This document shows, piece after piece, positions 844-10,099 of a stretch of 10,099 bases of DNA (position 1 is its first letter; the number at the start of each line of letters is the position of its first letter). Where the stretch lies: the NCBI GenBank assembly GCA_003553165.1, contig PUOZ01000345.1, forward strand, positions 1 to 10,099, given 5' to 3'. The DNA is from Thioalkalivibrio sp. (GTDB taxonomy: Bacteria; Pseudomonadota; Gammaproteobacteria; Ectothiorhodospirales; Ectothiorhodospiraceae). The notes below the pieces were generated by a model. The model was not told the DNA's origin and ran no database searches. It worked only from the letters and a program-made list of their open reading frames with translations. A program made the translations under genes and the position numbers.

Positions 844-1323
844 TTACCCGTCATCACGTAAGAGGCGGACCTCGAAACGCTGGCGCTTGTGCCGCCAGTT
901 GCTGAAGCCGTTGGCGAAGTGGACGCTCCAGGCGTAGAACGCATCGTAGGCGGCTTCGGAGGATGACCAGTAATTGGAAGGGGGGGTGTTGGGAAACGCC
1001 TCGGGATTGATGGCGGGGTTGAATACCCGGTACTCCACCAGCGTCTGCAGTTCCCCGACTGTCGGCAGGCGCCAACTGTCGTTGCCAGCGAGGTCGGATT
1101 CGAGATTGATGGCCTGGTCCCAGGTGTACCGATTGGGAAGGCCTGCGCAACCGCTTCCGGTCCATTTCTGCCCCTTGCTGCAACGCATCCACTGCAGACC
1201 CGTTTCGCGATCCAGGACCACGGCGCCGTCCTCGATGACCTCAAAGCGTGTGTCGGCCGGGTCCGCCGATGCGACCGAGTGGCCAGCCAGCAGCAGTGCA
1301 AACCCCGCGATCAGAAACTTCAT
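844..1323 (-). CDS. Secreted DUF1566 (Lcl C-terminal-like) domain protein
   Basis: The product is 159 aa. Residues 1-20 are a clear Sec signal peptide: a Lys near the start, a hydrophobic core (FLIAGFALLLAG) and an ASA cleavage site before DPADTRF. The rest is a single DUF1566 domain with its usual landmarks: TGLQWMRC (about 41-48), SWRLPTVGELQTLVEYR (about 83-99), NYWSSS (about 117-122), AWSVHFANGF (about 131-140) and a closing VRLLRDDG. Cys48 and Cys59 could form a disulfide in the periplasm. The domain is widespread in proteobacterial secreted proteins and its biochemical role is not established. The start is chosen from an excellent AAGGAG ribosome site 6 nt upstream and the signal peptide. 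It lies downstream of cbbR on the same strand but across a 270-bp gap, so it is probably a separate unit with no evident CCM role. Confidence 0.85.
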   Translation of the reverse strand: MKFLIAGFALLLAGHSVASADPADTRFEVIEDGAVVLDRETGLQWMRCSKGQKWTGSGCAGLPNRYTWDQAINLESDLAGNDSWRLPTVGELQTLVEYRVFNPAINPEAFPNTPPSNYWSSSEAAYDAFYAWSVHFANGFSNWRHKRQRFEVRLLRDDG

Positions 1324-1596: not shown

Positions 1597-2610
1597 TCAG
1601 CGATTCAGGTTCTGCTGGAAGTCCTCCATCATCCTGTCGATGTGCGCACGCACGCGGGCCTCGTCCTGGATGGCGAATTCGAGGAAGGTCTTGGCGACGA
1701 TGGACAGGACCTTGCGCCGCGGGTGCACGATGTGCCACTGGCGCAGTATGGGGAATTCGGCAACATCCAGGAGCGCGATCGGGCCGCAGGTTCCCTCGGC
1801 GCTCAGGGTATGCAGCGAGAGGACGGCGATCCCGAGTCCGCCGATCACCGCCTGCTTGATGGCCTCGTTGCTGCCGAGGTCCATACGAATCTTCGGCTGC
1901 ATGCCATGCTGTTCGAACAGCTTCAGCGTCGCCTCGCGGATGCCGGAGCCCGGTTCGCGCATCAGGAAATATTCCTTGGCGAGGCGCTGGATGGGGATGT
2001 TTCGTTTGCCGACCAGGGGATGATCGCGCCGGGCCATGACCACCAGCGGATTGGGCGCGAACGGGTACACGGCGACGTCGTTCAGTTGGTCCGGCACATG
2101 CCCGATGATGTAGAGGTCGTCGTCGTTGTTGGCAAGCCGCGCCAGTACCCGATCGTAGTTGCTGACCTCCAGCGAGAGTTCGACCTGGGGGTACTTGCGG
2201 GCGAACTGCCCCAGGATGCTCGGCGCCAGGTACTGTGCGGTGGTGATCACCGCCAGTCGCAGCCGTCCGCGCTTCAGACCGTGGAGGTCGGCGAGCTTCA
2301 TCTCCAGGTTGGTCAGGGATCCGAGGATTTCCCGGCAGGTGTCGTAGAGTTCACGACCGACCTCGGTGGGGAAGACCTTGCGCCCGATCTGCTCGAACAG
2401 GGGCATGCCCACGGCATCGGAGAGCTTCTTGATCTGGATCGAGACCGTCGGCTGGGTCAGGAAAAGTGCTTCGGCGGCCTGAGTGAAACTGCCCAGCCGC
2501 ACGATCGCCTCGAAGACCTGCAGCTGGCGGAGCGTGGCGTGCCGGATCAGGTGTCCCGGCAGCTCCGACTTGAGCATGATCTGGGGCTGCGCCGGATCCT
2601 TGCCGCTCAT
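1597..2610 (-). CDS. cbbR: LysR-type regulator, CbbR family
   Basis: The product is 337 aa from the chosen start. CbbR proteins control Calvin-cycle and CCM operons by binding T-N11-A sites and responding to metabolites of carbon fixation. The N-terminal winged helix-turn-helix (about residues 24-85) begins HATLRQLQVFEAI and contains GSFTQAAEALFLTQPTVSIQIKKL, the standard LysR recognition region. The rest is the two-lobe effector domain (for example LKRGRLRLAVITTAQYLAP, then GLGIAVLSLHTL). The start at 2610 is preferred because GGAAG lies 5 nt upstream; an in-frame ATG at 2622 and another at 2577 have poorer sites. It follows sbtB by about 60 bases on the same strand, whereas cbbR genes are often divergent from their target. 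CbbR is preferred over a generic LysR call because of its CCM context and its CbbR-like N-terminus. Confidence in LysR is very high, in CbbR high. Confidence 0.88.
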   Translation of the reverse strand: MSGKDPAQPQIMLKSELPGHLIRHATLRQLQVFEAIVRLGSFTQAAEALFLTQPTVSIQIKKLSDAVGMPLFEQIGRKVFPTEVGRELYDTCREILGSLTNLEMKLADLHGLKRGRLRLAVITTAQYLAPSILGQFARKYPQVELSLEVSNYDRVLARLANNDDDLYIIGHVPDQLNDVAVYPFAPNPLVVMARRDHPLVGKRNIPIQRLAKEYFLMREPGSGIREATLKLFEQHGMQPKIRMDLGSNEAIKQAVIGGLGIAVLSLHTLSAEGTCGPIALLDVAEFPILRQWHIVHPRRKVLSIVAKTFLEFAIQDEARVRAHIDRMMEDFQQNLNR

Positions 2611-2671
2611 CCCGGCTTCCATCTGCGGTTCATCGAGACCGGCAGGGTGGCCGGGCGCTGGGGCTGGCGGG

Positions 2672-2962
2672 TCAATTCTGCAGTTCGACGGGCGCGGTGT
2701 ACATCAGCAGCCCGTAATCCTGCTCGTAGGCTGACTGAAGGCGCTGGACGATGCGTTGGCACAGCTCTGCATTGCCAACGACTTCGATGCGGATGTTGCC
2801 GCCCTGGGTCCACCTCCCGGCGCGGGTTCCATGTGTGCCACGGCCCCGGGCCTCGGTGATGGTATAGCCCTTTGCGCCCAGATCCATGATCTCGTCGATC
2901 AGGATGTCTTCCAGGACGGTCTCACTGATGATGACAAGGAGAGTCATGGGCTGCGAAGTCAT
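2672..2962 (-). CDS. sbtB: PII-like bicarbonate transporter regulator SbtB
   Basis: The product is 96 aa with a PII-like ferredoxin-fold. SbtB proteins form trimers that bind adenine nucleotides, including cAMP in cyanobacteria, and control SbtA through the T-loop. MTLLVIISETVLEDILIDEI is the first strand-helix unit. KGYTITEARGRGTHGTRAG and the following WTQGGNIRIEVVG form the T-loop region (about 31-63). CQRIVQRLQSAYEQDYGLLMY is the second helix-strand. It ends at APVELQN, so the cysteine-containing C-terminal extension (CGPxGC) of many cyanobacterial SbtB proteins is absent. The start at 2962 is chosen because GGAG lies 10 nt upstream inside the 3' end of sbtA; the next ATG (2947) has no such site. 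It begins only 5 nt after the sbtA stop, so translational coupling is likely. SbtB rather than GlnB/GlnK is inferred from the pairing with SbtA and the non-canonical T-loop. Confidence 0.9.
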   Translation of the reverse strand: MTSQPMTLLVIISETVLEDILIDEIMDLGAKGYTITEARGRGTHGTRAGRWTQGGNIRIEVVGNAELCQRIVQRLQSAYEQDYGLLMYTAPVELQN

Positions 2963-2967
2963 AGCGA

Positions 2968-3912
2968 TCACGCTCCGAAGGAATGTAGGAACTGAGCCAT
3001 CCAGAGGTAAATCGGGATTCCCAGGAAGATATTGAACGGGAAGGTGATGCCCAGCGCGGCGCCGATGGAAAGCGCCGGATTGGCCTTTGGCACTGCGATG
3101 CGCATGGCCGCGGGAGCGGCAATGTACGAGGCGCTGGCATACAGTGTCGCCAGGAGCATTGTGCCACCGACCGACAGCCCCAGCATCCAGCCGAGCAGGG
3201 TACCGAGGATGGCCGAAAGCAGGGGAGTGAGGATGGCAAAACTGACCAGAAACACGCCATAGCTCCGCAGCCCCGCGATTCGGCCCGCCGCGACAAGACC
3301 CATTTCGAGTAGAAACAGTGCGAGGATTCCCTTGAACAGGTCGAAGAACAGGATGTCGAGCGGCTTGATGCCTTCCGCACCGGCGACGAAACCGATCACC
3401 AGACCGCCTGCGAGCAGCAGGATGCTTTTGCCGAACAAGACCTCGTGCGCAAGTCTTCCCCATTGTGTGTGGCCGGAGCCGCGGCGGGCCAGCACGACAC
3501 CGATCACCAGCGCAGGGATCTCCAGAAGGACAAGGAACACGATCATGTAGCCTTCGAAGTCGATGTCCTCCTGCATCAGCAGGGCCACGGCCACGGAGAA
3601 GGTGACAACGCTCACAGATCCGTAGTGGGCGGCGATGGACGCCGAGTCCGCACGGGTCATGCGGCCCAGCAGACGCAGTACCGGGAAGGACAGCAGTGGA
3701 ATCAGCGCGCCGACCGCGAGGATCAGAAGGGCGGGGACCAGCAGCTGAACCAGCGGGAACTCGGCCAGTTTCACCCCGCCCTGGAGGCCGATCGCAAGCA
3801 GCAGAAAGATCGAAAGGGCCTCGTAGATCGAGCCGGGGATCTTCAGGTCGGACCGGACCAGACCCGCGAACACCCCAAGCAGAAAGAACAGCACCACAGG
3901 TTCAAATTGCAT
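2968..3912 (-). CDS. sbtA: SbtA-family sodium-dependent bicarbonate transporter
   Basis: The product is 314 aa and almost entirely membrane-embedded, with about ten hydrophobic helices. The family takes up bicarbonate with sodium at the inner membrane and so feeds the cytosolic pool that carboxysomes use. Family landmarks are the N-terminal LFFLLGVFAGLVRSDLKIP, the small-residue segment HYGSVSVVTFSVA (about 97-109) and the matching LYASASYIAAPAAMRIAVP (about 257-275), which correspond to the two inverted-repeat substrate-site helices. It ends FPFNIFLGIPIYLWMAQFLHSFGA. It is shorter than cyanobacterial SbtA (about 370 aa), mainly because the central cytoplasmic loop (around ARRGSGHTQWG) is short. 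AGGA lies about 8 nt before the ATG. It is followed immediately by sbtB, the normal pairing. Sodium dependence is taken from the family and not seen directly. Confidence 0.93.
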   Translation of the reverse strand: MQFEPVVLFFLLGVFAGLVRSDLKIPGSIYEALSIFLLLAIGLQGGVKLAEFPLVQLLVPALLILAVGALIPLLSFPVLRLLGRMTRADSASIAAHYGSVSVVTFSVAVALLMQEDIDFEGYMIVFLVLLEIPALVIGVVLARRGSGHTQWGRLAHEVLFGKSILLLAGGLVIGFVAGAEGIKPLDILFFDLFKGILALFLLEMGLVAAGRIAGLRSYGVFLVSFAILTPLLSAILGTLLGWMLGLSVGGTMLLATLYASASYIAAPAAMRIAVPKANPALSIGAALGITFPFNIFLGIPIYLWMAQFLHSFGA

Positions 3913-3960: not shown

Positions 3961-4785
3961 TCATTCGGCCCACCGGCCCAGATAGGCATCGATGATAGCA
4001 ATGACGGCCTGGGCCTTGATCACCAGACCCAGGTCGATCATTTCCGCGGTCGTGACCGTGCCTCCCGGGGTCGCCGGTACGGGTCCCGGCACGAGTTCGT
4101 TCGTCTCCTCGCGGAAGAAGACCGCGGCAATCACGCCGGCGAACAGGAACTTGCGGCCTACGCTCTGGGTCGGGCGCATGTAGTCGGGCTGGTAGACGAA
4201 CACGGGGCTGCCGCTGGATCCGGGGTAGACGGCGGCATCGATCAGAAACTCCGGGCGTCCCTCGAAGTCGAGGAACATCGGGGTGGCGGTCGTGCCGCGG
4301 CGCATGATCGGCATCAGGTTCACGTGGTCCCAGACGCCGCTGGGGTAGCCGACGAACAGCACTTCCTCCAGTGCGTCCAGGGCCCTTAGCGCGGCGGCGT
4401 CGGGGCACAGCCGGCTGTCGATGACGTGGTAATAGAGTTCAACGCCCTGGTCGCGGGCCGCCTGCTCGAGGGGGCGCATCGGGACGATCGCGAGGTCCAC
4501 CTCGGGGTCCGGATGCAAAAACCAGGCATGCGGGAAGTCGTCGATGTTGAGCTGGAAACGCTGCCCGATCAACGGTTGGCCGTTGCGTTTCTGAGTGAAC
4601 ACGAGCCCGCCGCTGCGCACACCCTCGACGAGGTGGCGATTGGTGACGATGAAAGTGAAGGTCCCCCGCCGGTGGGTGTGGCTGACGACGAAGGCGGTAC
4701 CGGAACCCTCGCTGCCGTCCTCGAGGACAGTGTCGACCCGGATGGTGTTGAACAGCAGTTTCTTGCTCAGAGAGTTGACGTCCAT
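3961..4785 (-). CDS. Cytosolic trypsin-like serine protease within the CCM operon
   Basis: The product is 274 aa with a chymotrypsin/trypsin-like (S1, HtrA-type) fold. All three catalytic positions are visible: His51 in IVTNRHLVEG, Asp97 in PEVDLAIVPM and Ser191 in YPGSSGSPVF. The leading GSGTAFVVS (about 27-35) is the usual first barrel strand of this family. No PDZ domain, signal peptide or membrane segment is present, so it should act in the cytosol. The C-terminal 60 residues (about 215-274, ending IIDAYLGRWAE) follow the barrel and are unassigned. It starts 7 nt after cbbO with no clear ribosome site, suggesting translational coupling, and sbtA follows after 48 nt. I know of no established protease role in alpha-carboxysome function. 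Candidate targets are CCM proteins such as CsoS2, CbbO, CbbQ or SbtA/SbtB, but this is inference. Protease fold confidence is high; substrate is unknown. Confidence 0.88.
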   Translation of the reverse strand: MDVNSLSKKLLFNTIRVDTVLEDGSEGSGTAFVVSHTHRRGTFTFIVTNRHLVEGVRSGGLVFTQKRNGQPLIGQRFQLNIDDFPHAWFLHPDPEVDLAIVPMRPLEQAARDQGVELYYHVIDSRLCPDAAALRALDALEEVLFVGYPSGVWDHVNLMPIMRRGTTATPMFLDFEGRPEFLIDAAVYPGSSGSPVFVYQPDYMRPTQSVGRKFLFAGVIAAVFFREETNELVPGPVPATPGGTVTTAEMIDLGLVIKAQAVIAIIDAYLGRWAE

Positions 4786-4792
4786 GGCGGGT

Positions 4793-7147
4793 TTACCGGG
4801 TCAGGCCCATGTACAGCATGGGCAGCTTCTCGGGCAGTCGCTCCACCTGATCGAGCACGGTGAAATGGTTCATGCCGAAGATCCTCGAGACGTATTGATC
4901 CGCATGCGGATCCAGTGACAGCGCGTAGGTGGTGATGCCGTTTCGCGCCAGCTCCTCCACCGCGCGCTTGGCATCGTGACGGAGATACTGCGGGTCACGC
5001 ACATCGTTGTCGGCCGGTTCACCGTCGGTGATGACGAACAGGATCTTCTTGTTCTTCGGTTGCTGCCCCAGATACGTGCCGGCATGGCGGAGCGCCGCGC
5101 CCATGCGCGTCGAGTACGAACCCTGCATGCCGGCGAGCCGCGCCTTCACGAGGTCGTTGTAGGGTTGGTCGAAGTCCTGGAAACGATAGTAGTGCACGTC
5201 GTGCCGGCCATCGGAACAGAAGCCATGAAGGGCGAAGGGGTCGCCGATCCGATCGAGCGCGTCCGACAGCAGGACGGTGGCGGACCGTGTCAGGTCCATG
5301 ATGCTGTATTCCTGGCCGCGCACCTTGTCGTTCGCGGACTCCGACATGTCCAGGAGCACCATCACCGCGAGATCCCGAACATTGCGCTTGTAGCGCATCA
5401 TGATCCGGGTATCGGGGTGCTGTCCGGTGCGGATGTCCACCATCGCGCGGACCGCCGCGTTGATGTCCAGCTCGTCCCCGTCCTCCTGGCGGCGCAGGCG
5501 CTGCATGCCCTGTGGAATCATGGATTCGATGAGGAACTTGAGGCGGGAGATCACGGGCTTGTGGTCCTCGATGATCTTCTCGATCAGTTCCAGATCCCCC
5601 AGCTTGGGTTTCCGCTCCAGAACCGTCACCCAGCTCGGGCGGTCGAGCTGGATCTGGTAGTCCCATTCGTGATAGTGGAAGGGATCGGAGACGGGCGTCT
5701 TGCCCTCGAGTTCATTGATGGTCACGCCTTCCTGATCCAGGTAGAACTCGGTCGGCAGCACCCAGATCTCCTGGGCGTCGTCGCCGGCGAACTCGTAGTC
5801 GAGCGTGTTCACCATTTCGATCACGCTGACCGTCTTGCGCACCTGCTTCGGGGCCCAGGTCGCCTCCAGCGCCGCCTCGAGGTCGTATTCCGCGGATTCC
5901 CATACGGTGCGGTTGTCGTCGCGGTAGGGCGCGCGGAGCACATCGGTGCGGGGGTTGAACCCGGGCAGGGGCAGGGTGGCGAGACTGTGGGCCAGGTCGA
6001 CGCCGATGTTCCAGCTGATCTGGTTGCTGGAGAGGTCCTGCTCGGCGCGGAACAGGGACAGCCCCTGCTGGACCCAGGGGTGGGGATCCCGGGAGTCGGG
6101 TTCGAGGAGGGCGCGTGCGAGGCGATTCAGAAGATCGCCAACGCTCTGCGGGTCGCCGTAATCGGCAGGCGGATGCAGTGCGAGCCAGGTGGTTCGCATA
6201 TTGGGAAACTGCTCACAGGCAAGCGCCTCCACACGGGCGTCTTCCACCGCCTCGATGATGGCCATCTGCGTAGTGTCCAGCGTTTCCATGGACAGCGGTT
6301 GCCGGGTGAACACCAGATGCGCCGCGCAGTGATTGGCGGCCGCCCGGTAGAGTTCCAGGCCGGATACCACCTGGTCATCCGGCGTCTCGTCGCCCAGGGG
6401 GCGGTAATCGTCATAGGCATCCGCGATATGGATGACGAAGCGTTCGATATAGGGTTTCAGGCCCTCGCGGCTCTCGTAGTCCCCGGCGGTCGGGCGCAGG
6501 AAGAAATCCCGTCCCCACATCGCGCGCAGGTAGATGTTGAGCCGCCGTTGCACGTCGACGAACAGGGTGCCCTTGCGTTCGCCCTGGAGTACCGACAGGG
6601 CATCGGGACTTTCCAGCGAGAAGTACCGGACCTGGCCTTCGAAATCGGTTTTGTACGCTTGTGCGCCCCAGTTCACCCAGCGGCGAAAACCACCCAGCGT
6701 GAGCTGCGTCAGCAGTTGGTCCAGGTGCTCAAGCATCGGCCGCATGCCGCGGGGTGCCTGGGCCAGCATCACTTGAAGGACGTTCAGGTAGGATCGGAAG
6801 AGGCTTTCGTCCCCGAGCCGTGCCGCCGCCAGCGGTGCGGTCCCGACGATGAGGGTCAGGACCTGGCCGGACGTCTTCGATGCCATGCCGAGCAGAAAGG
6901 TCACGACATCAGGCAGGGTCTCCTCGCCGATGGCGCGGGCGACCTCCGGCATTTCCTGCAGATAGGTGACCACCAGCTCCGGATCCCGGTTGAGGTGATG
7001 CAGCGCGACCGCGCCCTTCAGGTAGTTGTCCAGGCCCCGGGAGGAGAAGACGCGCGCAGCCTCGTTCCAGGAGCCGCGAAGGACATCCTGGGCATTGTGC
7101 GGAAGGTCTTCGAGGATCTCCGCATAATCTTCGAGATGAATGGCCAT
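4793..7147 (-). CDS. cbbO: CbbO, VWA-domain subunit of the CbbQO RuBisCO activase
   Basis: The product is 784 aa, the usual size for the family. CbbO is the substrate adaptor of the CbbQ AAA+ ring: it binds RuBisCO through its C-terminal von Willebrand A domain so that inhibitory sugar phosphates can be removed from the active site. The long helical N-terminal region (about 1-560) is the part known to engage CbbQ. The VWA domain (about 590-775) has an intact metal site: DMSES at 600-604, Thr680 in SYSTRMG and Asp708 in VITDGEPAD. The start MAIHLEDYAEILEDLP matches the family, although the ribosome site is poor and a strong hairpin ends only 10 bases before the ATG, so translation may be limited. 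It sits 40 nt after cbbQ. The CbbQ:CbbO ratio is known to be 6:1, so lower expression of this gene would make sense. NorD-type proteins are related, but the CCM context decides. Confidence 0.93.
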   Translation of the reverse strand: MAIHLEDYAEILEDLPHNAQDVLRGSWNEAARVFSSRGLDNYLKGAVALHHLNRDPELVVTYLQEMPEVARAIGEETLPDVVTFLLGMASKTSGQVLTLIVGTAPLAAARLGDESLFRSYLNVLQVMLAQAPRGMRPMLEHLDQLLTQLTLGGFRRWVNWGAQAYKTDFEGQVRYFSLESPDALSVLQGERKGTLFVDVQRRLNIYLRAMWGRDFFLRPTAGDYESREGLKPYIERFVIHIADAYDDYRPLGDETPDDQVVSGLELYRAAANHCAAHLVFTRQPLSMETLDTTQMAIIEAVEDARVEALACEQFPNMRTTWLALHPPADYGDPQSVGDLLNRLARALLEPDSRDPHPWVQQGLSLFRAEQDLSSNQISWNIGVDLAHSLATLPLPGFNPRTDVLRAPYRDDNRTVWESAEYDLEAALEATWAPKQVRKTVSVIEMVNTLDYEFAGDDAQEIWVLPTEFYLDQEGVTINELEGKTPVSDPFHYHEWDYQIQLDRPSWVTVLERKPKLGDLELIEKIIEDHKPVISRLKFLIESMIPQGMQRLRRQEDGDELDINAAVRAMVDIRTGQHPDTRIMMRYKRNVRDLAVMVLLDMSESANDKVRGQEYSIMDLTRSATVLLSDALDRIGDPFALHGFCSDGRHDVHYYRFQDFDQPYNDLVKARLAGMQGSYSTRMGAALRHAGTYLGQQPKNKKILFVITDGEPADNDVRDPQYLRHDAKRAVEELARNGITTYALSLDPHADQYVSRIFGMNHFTVLDQVERLPEKLPMLYMGLTR

Positions 7148-7187: not shown

Positions 7188-8096
7188 TCAGAAGTAGGTC
7201 GTGACGGCCGAGTCCAGGGCGTCACGCATGTCGGGATCGTCGGTGATCGGGCGGACCAGGGCCACGCGGCAGGCGGCCAGGGCCGGGACACCGTTCGCGA
7301 TCAGCGACCCGGCGTAGATCAGCATGCGGGTGGACAGACCCTCGTCGAGCCCGTGTCCCTTCAGGTTGCGCGCACGCTCGGCGATGTGCACGAGGTTTTT
7401 CGCGATGTCGATGCCGACCCCGGACTCGTGTGCCACGATCTCCGCCTCGACCTCGTGTTCGGGATAGTTGAAGTCCAACGCGCCGAAGCGCTGTTTGGTG
7501 GACTGCTTGAGGTCTTTCATCAGCGACTGGTAGCCGGGGTTGTACGAGATCACGACCTGGAAGTCCGGATGCGCCTCGATCAACTCGCCCTTCTTCTCCA
7601 GGGGCAGCACGCGCCGCGCGTCGGTCAGGGGATGAATGACCACGGTGGTGTCCTGGCGCGCCTCGACCACTTCGTCGAGGTAGCAGATCGCCCCATGGCG
7701 TGCCGCCGCCGCCAGCGGGCCATCCTGCCAACGCGTGCCATCGGCGTCGAGCAGGAATCGGCCGACCAGATCGGAGGCGGTCATGTCTTCGTTACAGGAA
7801 ACCGTGATCAGGGGCTTGCCCAGTTTCCAGGCCATGTATTCGACAAAGCGGGTCTTGCCGCAGCCGGTGGGACCCTTGAGCATCATGGGCATGCGTACGG
7901 AGTAGGCCGCCTCGTAAAGATCGACCTCATCGGCAACGGCGAGGTAGTACGGCTCTTCCCTGATGACATAGGGCGCAAGGACTTCCGCGGTCGCATGGTC
8001 TGCCGCGGGCCGGTAGGCAGCGGGCTGCCGGGCGGCCGAACGCGCGACGGTATCGCGGCGCGGGGCGTAGGTTCGCATGGTGGGTCGATTGGGCAT
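7188..8096 (-). CDS. cbbQ: CbbQ, AAA+ ATPase of the RuBisCO activase, with N-terminal extension
   Basis: The product is 302 aa, a MoxR/CbbQ-NirQ-NorQ AAA+ ATPase. It forms hexameric rings that with CbbO remodel inhibited RuBisCO; in Halothiobacillus CbbQ is carboxysome-associated. Visible motifs are Walker A GPTGCGKT (75-82), Walker B ICYLDEV (137-143), sensor-1 Asn186 in ISYNPG, a likely arginine finger in KQRF (Arg203) and a sensor-2-like STR (255-257). Usual length is about 265-270 aa; the excess is a basic, Arg/Ala/Pro-rich N-terminus of about 35 residues before [12 protein letters not shown]. The start at 8096 is supported by AGGTGA 6 nt upstream. An in-frame ATG at 8078 would still keep most of the extension, and no other Met occurs before residue 69. 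It follows mcdB by 24 nt and precedes cbbO by 40 nt. NorQ is less likely because no nor genes are present. Confidence 0.94.
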
Positions 8097-8120: not shown

Positions 8121-8447
8121 TCAGTCCGGCCAGACGCGCTTGGGGAACAGGGCGCTTCCGCTCTCGGGGATCTCGTCGGGTTGGGGCTTCTGGGCGGCCG
8201 ACGCCTTCCGTGTGCCTGTCGACTCCGAGGCCTTCTTCTTCTGCGCCGCATCTGCCGGCTTCCTGGTGGCCGGTTTCTTCGGCGCGGCTTCTTTGCGAGG
8301 AGCCGCGGTTCGGGGCTTGGCGGCCGTGGCGGCGACCTTGTCAGCGGGCTTGGCCGCTGCAACCGCCGCCGGAGCGTCGGCGTCGGGATTCTGGGCCGCC
8401 TTGGCCTGGCGCACGCTGGCGGATAGCTTGTCCTTGGTGTTTGTCAT
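8121..8447 (-). CDS. mcdB: McdB-like carboxysome positioning protein
   Basis: The product is 108 aa. McdB is the carboxysome-bound partner that stimulates the McdA ATPase so that carboxysomes spread over the nucleoid. The match rests on context and architecture, not on a domain: it overlaps the mcdA stop by 4 bases (ATGA), has a short charged N-terminus (MTNTKDKLSASVRQAKAAQ), a disordered Ala/Lys/Pro-rich centre (about 29 alanines in all, with histone-H1-like AAPKKPATRKPADA) and a short C-terminus, LFPKRVWPD, with a Trp two residues from the last. A near-terminal Trp is characteristic of alpha-type McdB proteins. The centre lacks glutamine enrichment and has high positive charge, so it could also touch DNA or RNA. 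GAGGTG lies 8 nt before the ATG. Generic search tools may label this hypothetical. Confidence 0.82.
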   Translation of the reverse strand: MTNTKDKLSASVRQAKAAQNPDADAPAAVAAAKPADKVAATAAKPRTAAPRKEAAPKKPATRKPADAAQKKKASESTGTRKASAAQKPQPDEIPESGSALFPKRVWPD

Positions 8448-9079
8448 GGTGTAATCACCTCGTTGATGACGGCTTCGATTTCGGCCGCAGCCTGTGCCCC
8501 TCGGCCACCCAGTTGATACACGGATACGCCATCGAGCGCGGCGCCCCGGTATACCGCCCGTCGGCGCATCGCGGCGCCCAGCACCGGGATGTCAAATTCT
8601 TCCAGCGCCTCCCGCATCGACGCGGACAGTGCGCTTCTGGGCTCCATCTGGTTGAGGACCAGAAAGGCCTTGAGTTTCGGGTTCACCTTGCGGGCCTCCG
8701 CGATTTCCTGCGGCAGCCGCAGACTCGCCCACAGATCCACCGGCGACGGCAGGATGGGGATCAGCGCGATGTCGCAGGCGCGCAATGCCTGGAGGGACGC
8801 GTGGCTGTCGAGAGAGGGCGGACAGTCCAGTACGGTGTAGCGGTAGGCCTGGAAGCCCTTCTGCAGCGAGCGGGCATCCCATTTGCCGCTCATCTGCTTG
8901 ACCGTCGCCGGGAAGGGTGCGTTCCCCAGCGTGGCCCACTGCCGCGAAGAACCTTGCGGATCGAGGTCGATGACCACGGTGTCGCCACGGCGGGAGAGGC
9001 CCGCGCCAAGATTCATCGCGAGCGTCGTCTTGCCCGCGCCCCCCTTCTGGTTGACCACTGCGGTGACATGCGTGGCCAT
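8444..9079 (-). CDS. mcdA: McdA, ParA-type carboxysome positioning ATPase
   Basis: The product is 211 aa, a small ParA/MinD ATPase without an N-terminal DNA-binding domain. It carries the deviant Walker A KGGAGKTT (12-19) with the signature Lys12, a Walker A' region IDLDPQGSS (about 37-45) and Walker B VLDCPPS with Asp85. ATP-bound dimers of such proteins bind the nucleoid and are cleared by their cargo-bound partner, producing even spacing of carboxysomes. Basic residues such as RRRAVYRG near the C-terminal part could contribute to DNA binding. It starts one base after the acRAF stop and overlaps mcdB by 4 bases. A plasmid-type ParA is unlikely because there is no parB or origin nearby and the flanks are carboxysome genes. 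Confidence 0.92.
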   Translation of the reverse strand: MATHVTAVVNQKGGAGKTTLAMNLGAGLSRRGDTVVIDLDPQGSSRQWATLGNAPFPATVKQMSGKWDARSLQKGFQAYRYTVLDCPPSLDSHASLQALRACDIALIPILPSPVDLWASLRLPQEIAEARKVNPKLKAFLVLNQMEPRSALSASMREALEEFDIPVLGAAMRRRAVYRGAALDGVSVYQLGGRGAQAAAEIEAVINEVITP

Positions 9080-9080
9080 T

Positions 9081-9350
9081 TCAGGGTTCCGACGGTTCCA
9101 TCAGCGCATTGATGCGCGCGGCGAGATCCAGCTCGACCGAACCCAACTCGCTGCCATCGCCCGGCTCCAGCGTGATGTTGACATAGGTGGTGCCGAAATT
9201 GATGTTCTGCGGGTGCACGCCTACCTCTTCCGTCAACGCCGCGACGGCATCGAGGAAGACGCGCGTTTCGCCGTAGCGCTCGAACTCGAAGCGCCGAAAC
9301 AACGACGGAGGTCTACCGCGCGCTTCCCATCCCTCCGGCAGGTCAGCCAT
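9081..9350 (-). CDS. acRAF, alpha-carboxysome RuBisCO assembly factor
   Basis: The product is 89 aa, with a pterin-4a-carbinolamine dehydratase-like fold. This carboxysomal branch acts as a RuBisCO assembly chaperone and not as a dehydratase. The N-terminus LPEGWEARGRPPSLFRRFEF and the segment FLDAVAALTEEVGVHPQNINFGTTYVNITL (about 32-61) follow the fold. The active-site HH of true dehydratases is reduced to VGVHPQN, so one histidine is missing and catalysis is not expected. The ATG lies inside the end of the ferritin-like gene (8-base overlap), and the stop is one base before mcdA, so all three are probably translationally coupled. Function as a chaperone is taken from the known family. Confidence 0.92.
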   Translation of the reverse strand: MADLPEGWEARGRPPSLFRRFEFERYGETRVFLDAVAALTEEVGVHPQNINFGTTYVNITLEPGDGSELGSVELDLAARINALMEPSEP

Positions 9351-9780
9351 GTCCGTTCCGTGCTGCCATCATGCGGTCGATTTCCTGAACGTGCGCCAGT
9401 TCGTCTTCAAGGATCTCCTCAAACAGTTGCGCGGACTCCGCGTCGCGCATACGCCGCGCGTGAGCGACGGCTTCGCGGTAGACCTTCACCGCGTCGGCCT
9501 CGAGGATGCGGTTCGCAGCCAACAGATCATCCACGCTGCGCCCCAGCCGTGCCGGCGCCAGGTTCGTGGCGGCGGGTGCCACCCCGACCCGGATCAGGCG
9601 CTCCATGAGGCGCTCCGCATGCCCCAGTTCCTCGACGGCCTCGGCCCGCAGATACGTTGCAAGCGTCGCATCCCCCCACAGGTGTGCAAGCACGCTCTGC
9701 GCAAGGTATTGCTGCACGGCACTCATCTCATGAGTGAGCGCGCGCGACAGCCAGCCGATGGTCCGCGGATCGACGCTCAT
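9343..9780 (-). CDS. Bacterioferritin-like protein of the carboxysome operon
   Basis: The product is 145 aa, a four-helix ferritin-like protein. Every di-iron ligand of bacterioferritin is present and at the same numbering: Glu18 (LTHEMSAVQQYL), Glu51 and His54 (EELGH), Glu94 (RILEADAVKV), Glu127 and His130 (EDELAH). The position of the haem-ligating Met52 is a Leu, so inter-subunit haem binding of the classical type is not expected. It is slightly shorter than Bfr (about 158 aa), with a shorter C-terminal tail. Such genes sit next to csoS1 in many alpha-carboxysome operons; the role is not established, and iron or redox handling is the obvious guess. It begins 11 nt after csoS1 with TAGGA upstream, and overlaps acRAF by 8 bases. 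Confidence 0.9.
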   Translation of the reverse strand: MSVDPRTIGWLSRALTHEMSAVQQYLAQSVLAHLWGDATLATYLRAEAVEELGHAERLMERLIRVGVAPAATNLAPARLGRSVDDLLAANRILEADAVKVYREAVAHARRMRDAESAQLFEEILEDELAHVQEIDRMMAARNGHG

Positions 9781-9791
9781 CGAGCGGCGTC

Positions 9792-10099
9792 CTAACTGCG
9801 GGTCGAAGTGAGTTCGGCATCGCGGCCGCCGCCAACGGCAGACGGCTCGGTTGGCAGGATGCCTTCCACCTCGTTGTGCACGCGGGCGATGATGTGTGCG
9901 GCCACCAGGCCGTCACCCACGCGCTCGCAGGCATCGGCGCCCGCACGGACGGCCGCGTTGACCGCGCCGGTCTCGCCACGCACCAGCACGGTGACGTAGC
10001 CGCCGCCGACGAACTGGCGGCCGATCAGCCGGACTTCGGCGGCCTTGGTCATGGCGTCCGCTGCTTCAATCGCGGGAACCAGACCACGGGTCTCAATCA
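9792..10099 (-). CDS. csoS1: CsoS1 carboxysome shell hexamer protein (5' end outside the window)
   Basis: The visible 101 residues form a single BMC domain. The reading frame is open to the right edge (IETRGLVPAIEAADAM, then TKAAEVRLIGRQFVGGGYVT), so the true start, about ten residues further, lies outside. The KAAEVRLIG and GGGYVTVLVRGETGAVNAAV stretches are hallmark CsoS1 sequence, and hexamers of this protein tile the flat faces of the alpha-carboxysome shell with a small central pore. After the conserved NEVEGILP it has an extra tail of about 19 residues, making it resemble the longer CsoS1B paralogue, which is commonly the last of the tandem csoS1 copies before the ferritin-like gene. 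Assignment to a specific paralogue is inference; family identity is near certain. Confidence 0.96.
   Translation of the reverse strand, partial: IETRGLVPAIEAADAMTKAAEVRLIGRQFVGGGYVTVLVRGETGAVNAAVRAGADACERVGDGLVAAHIIARVHNEVEGILPTEPSAVGGGRDAELTSTRS

Follow-up and report, generated by a model that had tools for sequence, protein, structure and literature searches.

We analysed a stretch of 10,099 nucleotides from Thioalkalivibrio sp. (contig PUOZ01000345.1; hereafter the window), which contains the end of an alpha-carboxysome (cso) operon on the minus strand and, between cbbO and sbtA, an intact gene for a small serine protease. This protease very probably serves the CO2-concentrating mechanism (CCM). 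Our reading as a whole, which is tentative, is that it is a dedicated CCM protease of HtrA/Deg fold, acting most likely on the Rubisco activase CbbQ and its adaptor CbbO. The gene and the codons of its triad are as follows.

3961..4785, minus strand: protease gene, ATG to TGA, 274 aa, HtrA/Deg-type S1 serine protease domain only
4633..4635, minus strand: codon of catalytic His51, H in 151/151 clade rows
4495..4497, minus strand: codon of catalytic Asp97, D in 151/151 clade rows
4213..4215, minus strand: codon of catalytic Ser191 (GSSGSP), S in 151/151 clade rows

The original prediction held that a housekeeping enzyme would not be expected at this spot, and the gene is not a stray one. A CCM gene (cbbO, csoS1D, sbtA or other) adjoins the protease in 27/27 distinct genomes or records carrying the orthologous clade, which by their record names span Alpha-, Beta- and Gammaproteobacteria. 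These carriers are the 15 loci L028-L042, the genomes G000, G106, G263, G358, G786 (where a contig end cuts the protease after 72 residues), G787, G793, G795, G796, G805 and G806, and a plasmid of Nitrobacter hamburgensis; genomes met twice were counted once (L028=G794, L029=G788, L030=G792, L031=G791, L036=G774 (identical coordinates)). Some of the gene maps come from a rough gene caller, the key genes being placed by tblastn. The original prediction had proposed looking for the family beside cbbO or sbtA, and all 15 protease loci of the genome-contig scan (56-97% identity) have one or both close by.

The protease recurs in the cso operons of different lineages, and in 22/27 carriers it follows cbbO or csoS1D at the operon end. 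The order cbbQ-cbbO-protease-sbtA-sbtB-cbbR is found in the genus of the window and in G106, and cbbO-protease in L042; the G106 copy is identical to protein P0035 of Ectothiorhodosinus mongolicus. The order cbbO-csoS1D-protease is found in L033, L034, L037, L041, G263, G358, G805, G806 and plasmid 1 of N. hamburgensis X14, on which the 'serine protease' WP_011504801.1 begins 5 nt after a csoS1D-like gene, behind cbbLS-csoS2 and the remaining cso genes. The exceptions (L032, L035, L038, L039 and L040) have a protease-small open reading frame (ORF)-sbtA-sbtB cluster away from the cso operon, and their genomes still hold CsoS2 (5/5); the operon ends ∼ 13 kb upstream on the same contig in the L038 genome, and csoS1D is ∼ 14 kb off in the L035 genome. 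A class-wide draw placed the clade in 4/369 genomes (G000, G106, G263 and G358), all with carboxysome genes. CsoS2 was found in 71/369, including three of these four; in G000 the protease contig is itself a cso operon. Twenty genomes of a phylum draw (398 genomes) gave a match, with the clade itself only in G000 and the rest at ≤ 36% identity or short pieces. The random scatter of homologues that the original prediction named as counter-evidence applies to the distant family (≤ 45% identity; contexts L045-L056), whose members lie among mixed neighbours, and not to the orthologous clade.

The reading frame and the His51/Asp97/Ser191 triad were confirmed as predicted, as were the gaps of 7 nt to cbbO and 48 nt to sbtA. 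The residues lie in the motifs TNRHLVEG, VDLAIV and PGSSGSPVF, in the His-Asp-Ser order of S1 proteases, and do not vary across 17 aligned rows of close and distant relatives. The 151 rows of the clade alignment include duplicates and 120 protein-database entries without known genomic context. With more far relatives (66 rows), His51 and Asp97 stay invariant and Ser191 is kept in at least 90% of rows, not all. Trypsin_2 (PF13365, E 4.2e-10, 41 bits, curated cut-off 27.6) was the sole Pfam match, with no PDZ domain, and a simple test for a signal peptide or membrane anchor gave a best 12-residue Kyte-Doolittle mean of 1.18 within residues 1-45; both absences had been predicted. The protein shows no export signal by this test and is predicted to be cytosolic. 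GC content (0.647) and GC content at third codon positions (GC3, 0.858) are similar to those of neighbouring genes. From the intact triad and the fold match we infer catalytic activity; the protein is, with high probability, an active serine endopeptidase.

The best structural matches of the predicted structure are HtrA/Deg proteases, the fold covering residues 4-273 of 274, with low-confidence stretches at 202-210 and 225-249; a PDB sequence search gave no match better than E 0.6. The comparison with HtrA-type folds suggested at the outset thus came out in their favour. Because these are the best matches, 'trypsin-like', the label of the original prediction, stands as a statement on the predicted fold and not on specificity, and cleavage after Lys/Arg is not to be assumed. 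The likeness to the S1C proteases (DegP, DegQ, DegS, plant Deg2/Deg9) lies in the protease domain fold; the window protein differs in having neither a C-terminal PDZ domain nor a signal peptide, and GSSGSP where the HtrA active-site motif is GNSGG. It also matches, at near full length (E 2.4e-89, 297 bits), the PADLOC profile PDC-S45, a single-gene phage-defence candidate of similar length and single domain. L045 (326 bits) and L046 (394 bits) score higher, and the window protease clusters with the other CCM copies in one clade (24 rows, SH-aLRT 96) that sits in CCM clusters and not among defence genes. The CCM protease seems to be a PDC-S45 branch that has been co-opted.

The protease is under purifying selection, as are cbbO and cbbQ. 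The ratio of non-synonymous to synonymous substitution rates, a rough measure here as synonymous sites are near saturation, is 0.060 against L030 and 0.084 against L036; the corresponding values are 0.060 and 0.054 for CbbO, 0.078 and 0.073 for CbbQ, and, much higher, 0.39 and 0.25 for the gene in the McdB position.

The original prediction named several CCM proteins as possible targets. SbtA was rejected as an obligatory one: it is absent in 4/19 carriers, among them the complete genomes G263 and G358, and also G378 and G382. CsoS1D was rejected likewise, being found in 20/23 carrier genomes or records (one genome entered twice, as G774 and G377) and missing in G106, G373 and G383; G106 is a single contig, 99% complete. 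We also considered the protease as a substitute for the CsoS2 frameshift, searching csoS2 for heptamers of the form X-XXY-YYZ that are soon followed by a stop in the -1 frame. CCCAAA[A/G] followed 3 codons later by a -1 stop was retained in 9/13 carrier rows (L036, L104-L110, L115); it was not found in L034 and L041 (both 5'-cut) or L053 (none), and L042 has the same heptamer with a -1 stop after 1 codon. Since most carriers keep the signal, the protease is not needed to make short CsoS2. Non-carriers have the signal in 8/51 rows, some genomes being counted twice and two of the eight signals lying elsewhere in the gene. The likely -1 site is at about codon 563-584 of the longer frames (L104-L110, L115). 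Besides the core shell genes, CbbQ and CbbO are constant wherever the cso operon is readable, and they appear to be the best remaining target candidate. That CbbQ-CbbO is the direct target is plausible but tentative. The features concerned are these.

7188..8096, minus strand: cbbQ, AAA+ Rubisco activase, with CbbQ_C domain
7992..8096, minus strand: Arg-rich N-terminal tail of CbbQ, about residues 1-35, with MRTYAPRR motif, seen only alongside the protease
4793..7147, minus strand: cbbO, VWA-domain adaptor of Rubisco activase, named from its place and VWA domain, directly upstream of the protease
6365..6394, minus strand: loop of CbbO, residues 252-261, at least partly present in 16/16 carrier rows, similar length in 1/12 non-carrier rows

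When alignment occupancy was compared between carriers and non-carriers for 11 cso-locus families (8-18 carrier and 5-21 non-carrier rows per family), the sole differences were the CbbQ tail and the 10-residue CbbO loop; CsoS2, CsoSCA, CsoS4A/B and CsoS1 showed no carrier-specific segment. McdB was represented by 9 carriers and 0 non-carriers, and SbtB by a single non-carrier row. The cso CbbQ of carriers starts ∼ 70-90 residues ahead of Walker A, against ∼ 39-56 residues elsewhere. The tail has a motif like MRTY[AGS]PR[RQ] followed by a Pro/Ala/Arg-rich linker; G106 has RVYGPRR, and the motif is looser in L105 (MRRLTPKQ), L106 (MRRFTPRQ) and L042 (MRSASVKQ). CbbQ start codons were chosen by hand, and several non-carrier frames stay open further upstream; no tail motif was seen in ∼ 90 residues inspected of such extended frames.

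By genome, the tail is present in 24/24 readable carriers and 0/56 non-carriers read. The former are the window, L028-L031, L033, L034, L036, L037, L041, L042, L053 (G106), L104 (L038 genome), L105 (G263), L106 (G358), L109 (L039 genome), L115, G786, G787, G793, G795, G796, G805 and G806. Contig ends made the cso CbbQ unreadable in the other three (genomes of L032, L035 and L040); L032's own CbbQ (67% identical, no tail) was excluded as not belonging to the cso operon. The 56 non-carriers combine sets of 27 and 29, with G800 and G803, judged by alignment start, not counted; some of their CbbQs do not lie beside a cso operon, and CsoS2 was tested in few of the 29 (G322 has none). Among 52 genomes from the orders of the window and G263, tail and protease occur together in 16, 32 with a cso-like CbbQ have neither (the CbbQ was read in 30 and judged in 2 from where the alignment starts), and 4 have no CbbQ match and no clade protease (Fisher 4e-13, the genomes being related). 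Within the genus of the window (30 genomes), 11 have a tailed CbbQ with the protease, 16 a short CbbQ without it, and 3 no CbbQ match.

Several observations weigh against CbbQ-CbbO as the target. A tree built from the tail-free CbbQ core groups the 17 carrier rows in a single clade (96/84); L139, for which no anchor was found, L141 and duplicate copies of genomes were not part of it. Protease and tail may therefore merely share one origin, as two marks of a lineage that never touch. They are still together across Alpha-, Beta- and Gammaproteobacteria, and in two genomes with the protease away from the cso operon (L104/L038 and L109/L039); the link is suggestive, not proof. SbtA also differs, 13 carrier rows lacking two internal segments of 5 non-carrier SbtAs, which are distant (38-46% identical). 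Only 3/71 CsoS2-positive genomes of the class draw carry the protease, which is therefore an accessory and not a core cso component. Carboxysome-bearing relatives without it exist, for example G223, which has CsoS2 and in which cbbO runs directly into cbbR. That close relatives lack the gene at this locus, which the original prediction would have counted against itself, holds in part, for 16 genomes of the genus with a cso-like CbbQ; because these have a different CbbQ type and the CbbO of G223 is only 56% identical, the pattern looks like two operon types and not random loss. No diverged S1 protease was found at E ≤ 10 in 26 cso loci, 21 of them from non-carrier genomes. Finally, CbbQ and CbbO are reported not to be critical in H. 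neapolitanus in the accessible part of a 2026 review (PMC12918739).

The reading we prefer would run as follows. One lineage of alpha-carboxysome operons would have taken up a branch of PDC-S45, which would since have been inherited, and moved between classes of Proteobacteria, together with the CCM module. Limited cutting or turnover of CbbQ, by way of its lineage-specific Arg-rich, Pro/Ala-linked tail, or of CbbO, would set the amount of activase kept tethered to the carboxysome. In the available text of PMC4633670, CsoCbbQ is tightly bound to the carboxysome shell in complex with CbbO, and in that of PMC10614612 a disordered N-terminal CsoSCA peptide binds Rubisco and suffices for encapsulation. 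By analogy, the CbbQ tail could bind as the CsoSCA N-terminus does and be cut off by the protease. A more elaborate version, that protease and tail form one regulatory module in which the tail tethers CbbQ-CbbO to Rubisco or the shell and the protease removes tail or activase under changed conditions, is speculative and on balance unlikely. The tail was compared by eye only with the CsoS2 Rubisco motif RxxxxxRRxxxxxxGK (PMC10614612), and no likeness is claimed.

The target could instead be the carboxysome itself, the protease acting in quality control or turnover of the CsoS2 scaffold, CsoSCA or a mis-assembled shell protein, for example at plentiful CO2. We regard this as tentative too, and as hardly less likely than the reading we prefer: carriers possess carboxysome genes, the protease stands at the cso operon end in most of them, and its fold, that of HtrA, is characteristic of proteases for quality control. 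It fits less well with the lack of carrier-specific segments in CsoS2, CsoSCA, CsoS4A/B and CsoS1, with the retained CsoS2 frameshift signal and with the missing CsoS1D of single-contig G106.

Control of inorganic-carbon uptake, by cutting of SbtA, the PII-like regulator SbtB or another transporter part, is improbable. In the window arrangement the protease does immediately precede sbtA, and in the five clusters away from the cso operon it accompanies sbtAB; a SulP gene lies nearby in L033 and L038, the protease is convergent with dabA-PII in L043, L197 and L198, and the missing SbtA segments of carriers would also fit. Transporter neighbours vary, however, while the place after cbbO or csoS1D is kept, and the carriers without SbtA include two complete genomes.

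A phage-defence protease merely located in the operon is very unlikely. The near full-length PDC-S45 match speaks for it, as does the presence of far relatives on plasmids and in mixed contexts, but a passenger would hardly be expected with CCM genes in every carrier of three classes and in varied arrangements. Moreover, no close relative was found among 50,697 phage records (2 at 25% identity), and PDC-S45 is itself called a hypothetical defence candidate in the accessible text of PMC12429752.

HtrA proteins can act as chaperones, but a protein that has lost protease activity and now binds the operon proteins or assists them like a chaperone is the least credible explanation, as a non-enzyme would not need the His, Asp and Ser kept in every clade row.

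Several gene names in the rest of the window were given by position. The full order is CsoS1-type shell gene, bacterioferritin-like gene, acRAF, ParA-type ATPase with small partner, cbbQ, cbbO, protease, sbtA, sbtB and cbbR; the features not yet listed are these.

9792..10097, minus strand: CsoS1-type bacterial microcompartment (BMC) shell gene, cut by the window end
9343..9780, minus strand: bacterioferritin-like gene of the cso locus
9081..9350, minus strand: pterin-dehydratase-like gene, Rubisco assembly factor acRAF by position
8444..9079, minus strand: ParA-family ATPase, McdA by position
8121..8447, minus strand: small gene behind the ParA-type ATPase, McdB by position only
2968..3912, minus strand: sbtA, Na+-dependent bicarbonate transporter (PF05982)
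2672..2962, minus strand: sbtB, PII-like regulator
1597..2622, minus strand: cbbR-type LysR regulator

The gene at 9792..10097 is one that we take, from its place, to be of CsoS1 type; relatives of its product sit in the cso operons of L028-L042, and N. hamburgensis has annotated BMC genes there. In N. hamburgensis (L115, NC_007959.1) the csoS1D-like gene (289639-290271) is annotated 'hypothetical protein', its identity being confirmed by 91% identity to the L041 copy, and cbbO (287265-289625) is annotated 'nitric oxide reductase activation protein NorD'. Downstream of cbbR, both the window (844-1323, minus strand) and L036 (13323-13844) encode a protein with an Lcl_C domain (PF07603). The genome of the window holds a second, distant Trypsin_2-like protein of 243 aa and another subfamily (G000:C324:8992-9723, L056), beside what is presumably an aminoacyl-tRNA synthetase-like gene.

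Between the protease and sbtA or a SulP transporter gene there is a conserved ORF of ∼ 100 aa (L032:2814-3119, L033:9042-9344, L034:11069-11371, L035:10834-11118, L038:10833-11126, L039:1126-1410, L040:1863-2147). Weakly related frames occur close to SbtA in L042 (33%) and next to csoS1D in L114, a non-carrier (31%); neither Pfam nor PADLOC gave a match for the L032 copy, and the ORF may encode an unnamed CCM protein. At or near the protease-sbtAB cluster we also found a 381-aa protein (L035:8688-9833) matching LCIB_C_CA (PF18599, 26 bits against a cut-off of 25), an algal-type beta carbonic anhydrase family, with further copies at L032:376-1518, L038:6653-7768 and L040:503-855.

Sequence databases already name the gene 'serine protease'. 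The original prediction held that established alpha-carboxysome biology has no protease component, and the passages on alpha-carboxysome loci in the literature available to us list none: reviews, locus surveys, CsoCbbQ and reconstitution papers, most subscription papers and all supplements aside, make no mention of one. In the accessible texts, 'protease' does not occur in the 2026 review (which also has no 'proteoly'), a survey of atypical loci (PMC9164163), the E. coli carboxysome reconstitution (PMC7714395) or Sutter 2021 (PMC8217296, in which no carboxysome passage matched either); it occurs once in the CsoCbbQ paper (PMC4633670), in the reference list. The parts available of PMC5009743, PMC12429752 and PMC10614612 do not mention a CCM protease of the window type, nor do those of PMC4633670 and PMC12918739 a CbbQ N-terminal tail. 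The extended alpha-carboxysome locus described in the latter two (acRAF, McdAB, CbbQ, CbbO, CsoS1D, Dab, SbtB) has the same gene partners; the window locus differs from it by the protease and the tail. The passages seen of Axen 2014 (PMC4207490) contain neither 'protease' nor 'trypsin' and give a peptidase only for glycyl-radical-enzyme loci. That system resembles ours, by description and not by sequence comparison, in having a peptidase gene in a BMC locus; it is catabolic and its peptidase family is unnamed.

If the reading proposed here is true, post-translational control would be added to an organelle for CO2 fixation whose transfer into crop plants is being attempted, and if protease and tail do act as a switch, Rubisco repair in the carboxysome would be under proteolytic control. 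One genus with species that have and species that lack the protease-tail module offers a natural contrast. For the protease family, a defence candidate, the CCM clade would represent a branch in a metabolic role.
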